From positions 2,597,699 to 2,661,698 of the forward strand of contig NW_008705566.1 in the NCBI RefSeq assembly GCF_000186865.1: 64,000 nucleotides of DNA, read 5' to 3'. This DNA comes from Aureococcus anophagefferens. Taxonomy: Eukaryota; Sar; Pelagophyceae; Pelagomonadales; Pelagomonadaceae. Both the position numbers and the translations under genes were made by a program. Below the pieces are notes generated by a model. That model was given only the letters and a program-made list of their open reading frames with translations. It had not been told where the DNA came from and searched no databases. This document shows, piece after piece, positions 26,496 to 35,200 of the stretch; positions within the stretch are counted from its first letter, which is position 1; each line of letters opens with the position of its first letter.

Positions 26496-27065
26496 ATGTC
26501 GAGGGTCGCCGCCGAAGATTGCGTGCAGCCCTACGACGGCGCGGCGGTCGCGACTCCGGCGGGACCAGACGAGCCGCCGGCGGCGGCGCAGGCGGAGGCG
26601 CCCGTTGAGGCTCGGCAGGCGGCGGCGCAGGCGGAGGCGCTCAACTGGCGCGAGAAGTATGGGCTCCAGCAACCCGAGGCGCGCGACTCCTTCGACGACG
26701 ATGAGTTCTTCGACCCCGACGCGCCGGCGTACCACGAGGCGCCCGGCATCTGCGGCTGCGACGTCTGCATGTGCATCGTGGCGTGCAACTACGACAAGTC
26801 GGACCCGCGCTCGTGTCACCACGGCGTGCTCTTCGAAAGCGGCGAAGGCTTCGTCAACGCGAGCATCTGCAAGGCGTTGAACCTCGCGCGGCTGGGCTGC
26901 TGCGGCGCGGCGCCGGCGAACGCCGTCATGATCCGCGCGCCGCCGAGCGTCGCCAAGGCCATCCGCGTCTTCGACAAGACGGGCGTCGCGAGCATCAAGA
27001 ACCTGAGCGACGTCCACGCGCTCTACGGGGACATGCCCCGGGCCGCAACCGCCCGCGCAACTTAA
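26496..27065 (+). CDS. Small acidic protein with a cysteine cluster, unknown
   Basis: 189 aa. The Ala/Pro/Glu-rich N-terminal 50 residues contain a short internal duplication (AAAQAEAPVEARQ / AAAQAEALNWREK). An acidic patch (DSFDDDEFFDPDAP) leads to a cysteine-rich block GICGCDVCMCIVACNYDKSD, with SCHHGVLF and LGCCGAAPAN following: eight or nine cysteines that could bind metal. The C-terminus VAKAIRVFDKTGVASIKNLS looks helical. I do not recognise it. It overlaps the next gene by 4 bp at the stop codons (27062-27065). Confidence 0.55.
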   Translation: MSRVAAEDCVQPYDGAAVATPAGPDEPPAAAQAEAPVEARQAAAQAEALNWREKYGLQQPEARDSFDDDEFFDPDAPAYHEAPGICGCDVCMCIVACNYDKSDPRSCHHGVLFESGEGFVNASICKALNLARLGCCGAAPANAVMIRAPPSVAKAIRVFDKTGVASIKNLSDVHALYGDMPRAATARAT

Positions 27066-29174
27066 ATCGTCGGCGCGAACGCGGCGGCGGCCTCGGGCGC
27101 CGGCTGGGCCGTCTTGACGGCGCCGATGCCCGGGGGCTTGTCGTCGAGGCGCTCCGCGCGCTGGGCCTCCTCCCAGCCCGGCTCGTCGACCTTGCAGGTG
27201 CCGCCGCAGCGCGAGAAGATGAGGACGACGAAGGCCGGCAGCAGGATGCCCCACATGAAGACCGTCTCGCCCGTCGACGACCACGTGAGGAGGTCGAAGG
27301 AGTACCAGTAGGTGTAGCAGAAGCCGACGGCCCACCACAGCAGCATGAGCGTCGACGCCGAGTGGTAGTCGCGCTTCTTGAGCCAGTCGGGCCAGTACTT
27401 GTCCGTGAAGTGGACCCACGTGTAGACCTCGCCCCGGCGGCACCGCTCGGGGAACGCCTGGAGCTCCTTGCGCGTGCGCGGGATGAGGGGGCTCATGACG
27501 ATGGGCAGCAGCAGGAACGGCAGGCAGATCAACTGGAGCTTGGCGTACACGCTATAGTCGCCCGCCTCGAACTCCGCGTCCGTCGCCGTGTACTTGTCCT
27601 CGAGCCACGTCGTGACGCCGGACGTGTACTTGTCGACGATGTCGCAGATCGTGTTCGCGAGCACGTAGAGCAGGCCGCCGCGGTTGCTGTGGCACGTCGC
27701 GAGGAAGATGAGGCCGATGACGTTGCCGCCGAACGTCGACGCGATCTCCGAGACGACGTCGTACGCCGTCATGTACGTCGAGCAGGCCGTCGACTGCTGG
27801 CCGACCCAGGTGTAGAGCGGCACGAGGGCCGCGACGCCCAGCAGGAAGTTGGCGCACATGGTGTAGTACCACAGGGTCCGGAGCCGCATCTTCAGGCAGT
27901 ACTTCCGGTAGTACCAGTGCGAGGCGATCTGGACGACGTTGACGACGATCTTGTTCAGCGTGTAGGTGCTCGTCGACATGCCGCAGCCGTCGAGCTTCAC
28001 CATGTCCGAGTCCGTGCAGGAGATGTCCATGAGCTTGTACAAGGAGTAGAGGCCGATGACGTGCGCGACGTCCAGGTCCCGGAGCTGCCGCCTGTGTGGA
28101 AATCAAATCTTCAACCCGACTTCAATGTGAGCTTATTCGAATGTTTCGACGCAAGGCTTTCAGCTGGGCTTCGAGAACTCGACGAGAGCGATCGATCCGT
28201 CCAAAAATTAGCCGAATCGACTTCGATTTGACCGAGCTAGAGAATTCTCAAGTTTGGTCAGGACCACCCAAACCAGTGGTTGATTTCCACACAGGCTGCC
28301 GCTCCATCTTCGCGGTCTCGTTGCACGGCCTCCGCAGGGGCGGCTTCACCCGGGGCTCGAAGATGACGAGGTAGAGGGGCACGAGCGGCAGGGGGTAGAG
28401 CGCGTAGATGAAGCAGGAGCGGTTGATGTTGAACCAGTCCGCGGCCGCGGCCATGCCGCCGAACGTGTTGTCGACGACGACGTCCGTGAACAAGAGGCCC
28501 ACGAGAGATCCCGCCGACGTCACCAAACTCCAGGTCACGGCCAGGTAGCCCTGGCGCTCCAGCGGCTCGCGCATGGACCGCTGGACGTACAGGTAGTCCG
28601 TCACCGCGCCGCTCAGGCCGGAGCCCCACGACGCGACGAACCCGTAGAACATGAGCCGGTAGTAGGACATGGACGTGAAGCTCAGGAGGACGTAGACGAC
28701 GATGTGGATCAGCTTCGCCAGGATGTAGTAGTACTTGGCGCGCGTGCCGAAGACGGGCACGCAGACGACGAAGACGAGGATGACGATCTCGAACATGCCC
28801 GGCAGGTCGTCGATGTAGGCCATGACGGCCGTCTGGTAGTTGTTGAGCCCCAGCGAGTCGTAGGTGTAGAAGGACGAGACGATGCTGTAGACGGAGCTCG
28901 CGACCTCGTCGAAGAACTTCGTCAGCGTCAGGCCGAGCGTGCCGTACCAGAACGGGTCGATCATGTTCCTTCGCGTCTCCTCGTCGACGTCCTCCTCGTA
29001 GGGATCCGCGCGGATCGTCGCGTCGTCCTCGAGCACGGGGATCGCCCGCTGCGGCCGCACGCCCGTGGCGACGTCCGTCGCCCGCTCCATGGTCCGCAGC
29101 AGGCCGCGCTCCTCCTCGGGCACGCCGCCGTCGAGGTCGTCGTCGCGCGCCTCGGCGGACGGTTGGCTGCCCAT
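27062..29174 (-). CDS. Polytopic membrane carrier, possibly BT1/folate-biopterin type, one intron
   Basis: 633 aa after removing intron 28092-28302. About 75 acidic, soluble N-terminal residues precede some 12 membrane segments. Features: DPFWYGTLGLTLTKFFDEVA, YIDDLPGMFEIVILVFVVCV, GFVASWGSGLSGAVTDYLYV, and in exon 2 IFLATCHSNRGGLLYVLANT and LLWWAVGFCYTYWYSFDLLT. The order of helices and polar loops recalls BT1/FBT carriers of folate and biopterin, but no diagnostic motif is decisive. The splice joins codon GA|G to give ...KMERQLRDLDVAH. Divergent from the ABCB gene; the stop overlaps the neighbour by 4 bp. Confidence 0.68.
28084..28302 (-). mobile_element. Introner: 203-bp TIR element with 8-bp TSD forming a GC-AG intron
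   Basis: Element 28092-28294 has perfect 15-bp terminal inverted repeats, CTGTGTGGAAATCAA (28092-28106) and TTGATTTCCACACAG (28280-28294). It is flanked by the exact 8-bp duplication GCTGCCGC (28084-28091 and 28295-28302). On the gene strand the intron is 28302 down to 28092 (211 bp): the donor GC is the start of one TSD copy, the acceptor AG the end of the element. Excision restores the reading frame and one target copy. The interior shares blocks with the element at 34.3 kb. Confidence 0.96.
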
Positions 29175-32225: not shown

Positions 32226-35200
32226 TCACCGGACCGCCGCCCCCCGCGCGCGCGCGACGAGCCCCGCGAGGTCGCCCGTCGCTGCGCAGAGGTCGTAGAA
32301 GGCCGAGCCCGGGTCGCCGAGGAGCGCGCCGGGCGCGTCGCACTCGACGAGCGCGCCGCGCGCGAGGACGGCGACCTTGTCGAAGTCCGCGATGGTCGCG
32401 AGGCGGTGCGCGATGACGAGGAGCGTCGTCGCCGCGAGGTCGTCGCCGCGGAGCGCGGCCTGGATGCGCGCGTCCGCGCCCTCGTCGACGGACGCGGTCG
32501 CCTCGTCGAGGACGAGGATCCTCGACCGCCGGAGGAGCGCCCGCGCGAGGCAGAGGAGCTGCTGCTCGCCGGCCGAGAAGTTGGCGCCGCGGTCGTCGAC
32601 GGCCGCGTCGAGGTCGCTCCGCCGGAACGCGACGCGCGCGAGCGCGGCGGCGATCTCCGCGTCGCTCCGCGCGCCGAAGGGGTCGAGGTTCGCGCGGACG
32701 CTGCCCCGGAAGAGCGTCGGCTCCTGCGGGATCAGGCTCAGGCTCCCGCGGAGGTCCGCGAGCCTCAGCGCCGCGACGTCGACGCCGTCGACGAGCACGC
32801 GGCCGCCGGCGGGCTCGACGAGGCGGAAGAGCGCCGCCACCAAGCTCGACTTGCCCGCGCCCGTGCGCCCGCAGACGCCGAGGCGCTCGCCGCCGTCGAC
32901 GGCGAAGGACACGCCCCGGAGCGCCGGCGCGTCCGGCGCGGACGCGTAGGCGAGCGACACGGCCTCGAAGGCCACGCGCCCCTTCGCGGGCCAGCCCGGC
33001 GGCCGCGCGCGGCCGTCCGCCCGCTCGCGGGGCAGGCGCGCGTACTCGTCCGCGCGCTCGAGCGCGTTCGCCGCCATCTCGACCGTCGCGTGCTGCTTGA
33101 TCGTGAAGGTGACGGCCTGGGTCACGCCGAGGCTGTAGCTCAGCGCGAGGCCGACGGTGGCGCCGTCGAGGTCCGCCGCGCGCGCGAGCGCGTAGGCGAC
33201 GACGCAGCCGTTGACGAGCGCGCCGAGGCAGCGCAGGCGCACGACGAGCCAGGAGTTGACGGCGAAGAGCTGGTAGAGCGCGCTCGAGTTGACGTCGACG
33301 CGCCGGAGGCAGTCCTCCCGGAGGCGGCCCGTCGCCCCGAACGCGCGCGCGGTGACGAGGCCTGAAGACGCGCGGGTCGTTCGCGCGGCGGACGAGGCCT
33401 CGGACGCGGGCGCGCGCCGCTCGCGAGCTCCGCGACGGCGCCGAAGACCGGCGATCGCGTCGACGCCTCGAGCCGCTTGAGCTCGCGGTTGCCTGCGGGG
33501 ACAACGCTCCCGGAACGAAAGAGCGGGGGGAAAACGCCGGCGCTCGCAGGCGTAGTAGCGGCCGGCGAAGACGTAGGAGAAGCCCACCATGGGCGCGACG
33601 GACGCCGCCGCGACGGGGATCTCGTAGAGGATGACCGCGACGATGCCCGCGAGGCTCAACACGTACTGGGCGAGCATGGCGAGCTCGTTCATCAGGTCCT
33701 TGTCGATGGTCTGCACGTCGGACGCGCAGCGGTTGAGCACGCGGCCCGCGGGCGTGGCCTCGAACCACGCGAGCGGCGCGGCGAGCACCGCGGCGACGAC
33801 GCGGTCGTGGACCTTTCGCGACCCGCGCAGCGAGCCTTTGGCGATGGCGAGGCGCGTCAGGCAGAGCGTCCCGAAGGTCGCGGACGCGAAGAAGACGTAC
33901 TTGGACCGCTGCGCGGCGCCGGAGTTCTCGAGCTCGAGCGCGGCGACCCAGGCCTTGAGCGCCAACGCCTGCCCGTTGAGGAGCACCTGGTAGCCGACGA
34001 GGAGCGCGGCCATGGGGACGAGGAACGACGCGCCGCCGCAGTCGACGAAATAGCGGCCGTAGACGGCTAGCTTCGTCGCGCCGACCTGCTGGGCCTCCGC
34101 GCGGACGAGGCGGCCGTCGGCCGCGGCGGTTTTCGCGGCCGCGGCGCCGGGTGCGACGTCGTCGGCGTCGCGACCGCGCCGCGCCTCGGCGGCTCTGAGG
34201 TCCGGGGGGCGCGCGGCGGCGCGGCCGGCGCCGTCGAGCCAGACCGCCGCGTCCGCCTGGGCAGGACAAGAGAGATTCAACGTCGCTTCAACGTGAGTGT
34301 TCCGCGCGCGCGCGTTCCGGAAAAAGCATCCACGCTTCGAGGCCGTTCCGAGAGATGATCGCTCGTCCAAAAATCAGCCGAAACGAGCGGAAAACGGCCG
34401 AGATAGGAGCCTTTGAAGTTGGGAATTTCGCTCTCTTGTCCTGCCCTGGCGTCCGCGTCCGCCTCCGTCAGCGCCACCTGGTGCGTCGCGAGCACGACCG
34501 TCTTCCCCCTGAGCAGGTCGCGCACGACGCGCCGGAAGACGTGGGCGCCGACGTGGGCGTCCAGGGCGCTCAGGACGTCGTCGAAGACGTAGAGGTCCGC
34601 GTCCGCGTAGGCCGCGCGCGCGAGAGCGAGCCGCTGGCGCTGGCCGCCGGAGAGCGTCGCGCCCCGTTCCCCGATCTCCGTCAGATCCCCGGCGGCGAGC
34701 CGGGCGAAGTCGTCGTCGAGGGCGCAGGCGCGCACGACGGCGGCGTACCGCGCCGCGTCGTAGGCGGTCCCGAAGAGCACGTTGTCGCGCGCCGTCGCCC
34801 GCAAAATCCAGGGCGCCTGCGCGACGTAGGCCGCCCGCCGCCGGGCGCCGGGCCCGTCGAGCTCGCCGAGGAGCGCGAGGAGCAGCGACGACTTGCCGCT
34901 CGCCGTCGGGCCGTAGACGCACGTGAGCCGGCCCCGGCGGACGACCACGTCGAGCTCTTGGAGCGCGGGGGAATCCGCGCCGGGCCAGGAGAAGGTCCCG
35001 GCGAGCGCGATGTCGCCGGCGTCGCGCGCCGCCGCGCCGGCCTCGGCCGGCGGCGCGGCGCGAATGAAAGCCTCGAAGCGCGCAAAGGCGACCTTGGCCT
35101 GGATCCAGTGGTTGAGCGCGTCCGGCAGCGCGTTCAGAGGCCACCGCAATAGATTGAAGAGCGTCAGCGCCGTGAAGGCCTGGGCCGCCGTGAGGTCGCG

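Follow-up and report, generated by a model that had tools for sequence, protein, structure and literature searches.

A short inverted-repeat DNA transposon that very probably serves as a GC-AG intron in a transporter gene of Aureococcus anophagefferens, with its 5' splice site taken from the target duplication

How can a gene be split by a transposable element and still encode a protein of its original length? The question is raised by a 64,000-nucleotide stretch of the Aureococcus anophagefferens genome (contig NW_008705566.1; hereafter "the window"), in which a BT1-family transporter gene on the minus strand contains an insertion. A sequence-only reading of this DNA had described the insertion as a 203-bp element that ends in perfect terminal inverted repeats (TIRs) of 15 bp and is flanked by an exact target-site duplication of 8 bp, and whose removal together with one duplication copy restores the frame at phase 2, with the donor GC coming from the duplicated host DNA and the AG from the end of the element. 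All these points were borne out. The element is confirmed to the base at 28092-28294, its TIR CTGTGTGGAAATCAA matches the opposite end in inverted orientation at 15 of 15 positions and then ends, and the duplication GCTGCCGC is identical at 28084-28091 and 28295-28302. The features of the locus are as follows.

28303-29174, minus strand: first exon of the transporter gene (BT1 family, PF03092), with the ATG at 29174
28295-28302, minus strand: upstream (gene-sense) copy of the 8-bp duplication, which reads GCGGCAGC in the coding direction, with the predicted 5' splice site GC at 28302-28301
28280-28294, minus strand: TIR of 15 bp, CTGTGTGGAAATCAA, at the 5' end of the element in gene sense
28092-28294, no strand assigned: non-autonomous TIR element of family T, 203 bp
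28092-28106, plus strand: TIR of 15 bp at the opposite end, 3' in gene sense, whose final bases CAG (28094-28092 in gene sense) form the predicted 3' splice site
28092-28302, minus strand: predicted GC-AG intron of 211 nt, phase 2, comprising one duplication copy and the element
28084-28091, minus strand: downstream copy of the 8-bp duplication, the start of exon 2
27062-28091, minus strand: exon 2 of the same BT1-family gene, through the stop

We consider it very probable that this element is an introner, i.e. a non-autonomous DNA transposon of the MITE type that borrows its 5' splice site and supplies its own 3' splice site. According to this scenario, a non-autonomous element would have inserted into the coding sequence of the BT1-family gene and duplicated 8 bp of the target; the first two bases (GC) of the upstream duplication copy would then act as the 5' splice site, the end of the inverted repeat (CAG) would act as the 3' splice site, and the excision of one duplication together with the element (211 nt) would leave the original message unchanged. 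The segment 28302-28092 would accordingly be spliced from the RNA, the mobility of the element would presumably be of the cut-and-paste type and depend on a transposase supplied from elsewhere, and unspliceable insertions would presumably be purged. The element shares with MITEs the short length, the TIRs, the high copy number and the lack of capacity to encode a transposase, for which 203 bp is too short.

Within the window the TIR, allowing up to 3 mismatches, occurs solely at the two ends of the element, and two matches were obtained in 0 of 100 shuffles. We scanned the window for inverted ends of at least 8 bp (one mismatch, spacing 40-600) that are bordered by exact 8-bp repeats. Of the 33 candidates, only two, 28092-28294 and 34257-34448, reach 15 or more in the length of their inverted ends. 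The G+C content of the element is 0.47, against 0.72 for the window.

The gene reads from the ATG at 29174 to a stop that ends at 27062. Its frame is broken when nothing or the element alone is excised, while excision of the element with one duplication (28302-28092) yields an open frame of 633 aa, with an inferred intron of phase 2 bounded by GC at 28302-28301 and AG at 28093-28092. We scanned all pairs of GT, GC or AT donors at 28330-28231 with AG or AC acceptors at 28150-28051; 26 of them preserve a reading frame that is open over some 600 aa or more, and among these 26 only 28302/28092 gives both 633 aa and the junction sequence of the relatives. The restored protein matches the Pfam BT1 family at 26 bits (cut-off 22). 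A search of 5.8 billion protein sequences, in which the best 8,000 candidates by shared words were scored, found two relatives, P0001 (99% identity, 633 aa) and P0002 (81%, 623 aa), both of which read MERQ-L/V-RDLDVAH across the junction with zero extra residues. The source of P0001 consists of two contigs, the longer one of 5,472 bases; the continuity of its frame would be due either to an empty site or to a spliced source (cDNA or gene model), and the original length is kept either way. The comparison with an empty orthologous site, suggested by the sequence-only reading, agrees at the level of protein length in the two relatives, and no empty site was seen at the level of DNA. A paralogous empty site was also considered and rejected: positions 27700-28091 have a single match in the host genome.

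The TIR proved to be highly repeated in the host genome, for which a search had likewise been proposed. With up to 2 mismatches it has 1089 forward and 1082 reverse matches, 2,171 altogether, in 49.05 Mb (86 contigs), and the reversed TIR used as a control at the same mismatch limit has 5 and 4, so that family T numbers about a thousand members. Forty scored T copies are 93-100% identical to the copy in the window, and 37 were aligned. An exact 8-bp duplication was found in 30 of 42 end pairings at the first loci, some of these pairings being false or double, and in 80 of 104 pairings (53 of 67 for T, 27 of 37 for the second family described below) in the larger sample. That the window copy retains all its marks, as stated earlier, does not make it special. 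One of the sampled loci (L052, 2045-2247) represents a sub-family in which each end carries the TIR CTGTGCCGAATTCAA; its 8-bp duplication is exact.

A second family, U, is also present in the window.

34257-34448, in a minus-strand gene: member of family U, 192 bp, with the duplication GCGTCCGC on either side (34249-34456 with the duplications)

The TIR of this family, CTGGGCAGGACAAGAGAG, has 1252 and 1316 matches with up to 3 mismatches in the host genome, compared with 4 and 6 for the control. The host gene of the window copy, in our own reading, is probably ABC-transporter-like, and its joined frame continues through THQVALTEAD|ADAAVWLDG.

The insertion step should be blind to the coding strand, because the TIRs are symmetric; a GC or GT dinucleotide (GY) found at the beginning of the duplication mainly on the coding strand would therefore be the signal expected from selection for splicing. 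For the assignment of strand and frame we used a codon model trained on the window (24 open frames, third-position G+C 0.91 to 0.99), which calls both from the flanks of a copy, one flank including a copy of the duplication. The loci comprised the first 8 TIR places, the 30 best scored copies, 13 ends with atypical interiors and nine regions, to which we added one locus from a genome search with exon 2, 20 U places (out of at least 100) and 20 T places picked from the matches on one contig (C2), where at least three further matches were skipped. The set of TIR places that served for these choices lacks at least one exact end, which lies on C1.

The first sample was restricted to copies with duplications differing at no more than 2 positions; L001, L008 and L024 were left out, and one of 67 was dropped for its short flank. 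In all 66 remaining copies positions 1-2 of the coding-strand duplication are GC (45) or GT (21), and all of them (66/66) have CAG at the sense 3' end. On the opposite strand GY occurs in 20 of 66, against a background of 21% (p = 0.10). The frame is kept in 65 of 66 copies, and in 48 of 48 with a strong coding signal on both sides.

A larger and looser sample, in which copies with the same first 60 interior bases were merged (L095, which fits the rule by eye, was probably lost in this way, and perhaps others), contains 104 T and U pairings. Two of these are false (L018 at 700, and L077) and one is doubtful (L071), i.e. two or three false pairings are included in the counts. The duplication begins with GC or GT on the coding strand in 100 of the 104 and on the opposite strand in 36. 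For T the values are 65/67 and 20/67, with CAG at the sense 3' end in 67/67; for U they are 35/37 and 16/37, the latter exceeding the background of 21%, with CAG in 36/37. The sole exception to CAG is L071, which was unpaired in a separate pairing of the U places. The four exceptions to GY are the spurious L018 at 700, the wrongly paired L077, and the copies L001 and L092, whose duplication is shifted or longer but by eye still starts with GC or GT. The frame is kept in a fixed register in 62/67 T and 34/37 U pairings, and in the strongly coding subset in 46/49 T (L001, L090 and L092 fail) and 26/27 U (L077 fails). In the three failing T copies the boundary at the sense 5' end is altered, and a register shift of 1, 2 and 1 bases, respectively, to a duplication that starts with GC or GT makes their frames agree, as judged by eye. 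In L090 and L092 (301-503 in both) at least 12 bases instead of 8 are common to both sides, and the TIR at the gene-sense 5' end has its initial bases replaced by host sequence.

The two added sets were also scored separately. Among the 20 T places on C2, 18 were scored, with GY in 17 and the frame kept in 15 (not in L089, L090 and L092); the second end of L086 was not found. Among the 20 U places 19 were paired, with GY and CAG in all 19 and the frame kept in 18 (not in L065). A genome-wide search for exact TIR ends, of which the genome has at least 100, whose neighbouring 8 bp lack both an initial G and a final C returned 6 sites (1 for the reversed control); this pattern is found in 39% of flank 8-mers and in 2 of 134 sampled ends.

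RPC1 is essential in other eukaryotes, and one of the copies is located within the gene for this protein. From the ten longest joined frames we chose two for alignment, that of RPC1 and that of an ASCC3-like helicase. The former aligns without gaps to 5fj8_A through the conserved ...FRFN|ECVCAPYNADFDGDEMN, and the latter aligns without gaps to the second helicase cassette of 8alz_B through ...ARHA|ALLVIDEIHLLGE.

These data allow the alternatives to be weighed. One could envisage that the splice sites of the window element are an internal GT (CT|GTGTGG) and the AG within the downstream duplication (GGCAG|C), so that 208 nt would be removed and one proline added to the protein; the frame would be kept, GT is the commoner donor, and a published Aureococcus family that carries both of its splice sites does lengthen the message, by 12 bp, according to PMC9860276. 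We regard this arrangement as very improbable, in view of the lack of an added residue in P0001 and P0002, the GY at duplication positions 1-2 in 100/104 pairings, and the RPC1 and helicase frames, which align without an extra residue at the junction under the exact 8-bp rule. Slightly less probable still is the possibility that the MITE in the window arrived recently, stays in the message and merely disrupts the gene. The perfect TIRs and the exact duplication do suggest youth, but a GY/CAG rule on the sense strand is not expected from gene-breaking insertions, the frame is kept in all 48 strongly coding copies of the first sample, and one copy resides in RPC1. Finally, the copies might have spread in the form of RNA, through reverse splicing of excised introns, a route put forward for fungal introners, and the inverted repeats might be incidental. 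This view agrees with the intron-like behavior of the sampled copies with strong coding flanks within coding sequences, but it is the least probable of all, as the 8-bp duplications specific to each copy, the TIRs and the occurrence of both orientations (38:29) point to insertion of double-stranded DNA, and a reverse-spliced intron would be expected to stay in the sense orientation without an 8-bp duplication.

We return to the introner with a borrowed donor and to its two ends. The sampled copies sit in differing coding frames. In the 67 T pairings of the larger sample the interior faces both ways relative to the gene (38:29), therefore either end of T could act as the acceptor. CTG is missing from the sense 5' end in 11/67 T pairings and CAG from the sense 3' end in 0/67 (Fisher p = 6e-4); after insertion, the end that serves as the acceptor is constrained and the opposite end drifts. 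Base pairing between the two TIRs in RNA was considered as well. The two ends belonging to a T copy match each other in 712 of 765 pairs, compared with 690 +/- 3 for shuffled partners (0 of 2000 shuffles), and those belonging to a U copy in 214 of 255, compared with 204 +/- 4 (4 of 2000 shuffles). We do not take this as evidence of RNA structure, because ends inherited within sub-families could explain the match.

Family U (TIR CTGGGCAGG...) behaves differently, with a polarity that follows the strand of the host gene: its sense 5' end in 37 pairings reads CAG in 29, CGG in 5, CCG in 1 and CTG in 1, the remaining one being misplaced. The interior has the same orientation in 28 copies and the opposite one in 9, and the sense-5' CAG occurs in 21/28 of one orientation and in 8/9 of the other. 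In a tree of 34 U interiors the 8 "opposite" copies require 4 changes and form one group in 0% of 200 bootstraps; the tree is poorly resolved, with 3 of 31 inner branches well supported, and is compatible with one origin, while the orientation label is clustered. The polarity of U could result from asymmetric source elements combined with selection on orientation.

The source of the transposase was sought in several ways. Two patterns describing TIR ends with unfamiliar interiors matched 4 and 9 sites (0 and 2 for the reversed controls). Seven of these 13 ends belong to paired short copies with a duplication and one (L053) to a degenerate short copy; for the remaining five no partner with an exact duplication was found next to a matching end within about 10 kb each, including 1,820 masked bases at L055, where a longer TIR element is possible. 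The regions of L054-L057 (contigs C22, C38, C41 and C69) have a G+C content of 0.42 to 0.54, compared with 0.68 to 0.74 in the other five of the nine regions. Pfam models of the MULE and IS1595 transposases have no match in the host genome, while their controls were positive in 3 and 1 of 14 genomes, respectively; searches of the host genome with KDZ and hAT transposases gave no match either, with controls that were likewise silent, hence these two are uninformative. A viral vector was tested as a candidate and rejected, as the exact 22-base end of T (one side) and an 18-base end of U have no match in the viral contigs.

The borrowed donor may bear on an unusual feature of this genome. According to PMC3033335, 39.6% of the introns of A. 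anophagefferens are of the GC-AG type, the origin of which is termed an enigma there, and the 5' end of U1 is identical to the consensus. Among the 100 GY donors of our larger sample 65 are GC, against 79% expected from the dinucleotides of the flanks (binomial p = 0.001), therefore GT is mildly favoured and GC well tolerated. Introners that passively sample their donors from G+C-rich exons would explain the excess of GC-AG introns. This explanation was not found in the portions of the literature searched; the article by Huff et al. (2016), which lay outside that search, may give it. It is tempting to combine these observations into one reading, in which the T repeat is a two-way acceptor, the target contributes only the GC or GT, and the sense-5' end of U either has been freed of the match to the acceptor or has been chosen by splicing. 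We offer this combination tentatively, as a possibility somewhat short of an even chance. If it is true, a T element is an intron whichever way it is inserted, and the passive sampling of donors explains the GC-AG excess. The locus provides a clear example of an intron that was very probably born by DNA transposition, with a rule that is legible over about 100 sampled copies with few exceptions: little is asked of the target, which need carry only G and then C or T to serve as a 5' splice site. This bears on the spread of introns in bulk and on the abundance of GC-AG introns in some G+C-rich algae.

Introners of A. anophagefferens were reportedly described by Huff, Zilberman and Roy in Nature in 2016, as elements that are bounded by TIRs, duplicate their target and give rise to introns. 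Family T is likely to be the family of that study, by description rather than by sequence. The intron in the window, with its 211 nt, resembles the introners of this species, for which an article on Pelagomonas (PMC9481584) gives a characteristic length of about 210 bp. According to PMC7789003, direct repeats and TIRs of a fixed length are present in every one of these introners; that article words their splice motifs as canonical, whereas 65 of the 100 donors analyzed here are GC. Families that possess their own 3' splice site and take the 5' site from the duplication are described by Gozashti et al. 2022 (PMC9860276), an article that also supports the claim of the sequence-only reading that 8-bp duplications are known for Aureococcus introners. 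In the same article, the introner of Symbiodinium microadriaticum likewise obtains its 5' site from the duplication, which is 4 bp long there and 8 bp here. Family 4 of Aureococcus sp. (from a TARA MAG) shares with our element the 8-bp duplication and the Aureococcus host, but brings both of its splice sites and lengthens the message by 12 bp, whereas our element borrows one site and leaves the length as it was. The element in the window therefore fits an established kind of introner, for which the mechanism has already been proposed and among which this copy is in itself unsurprising.
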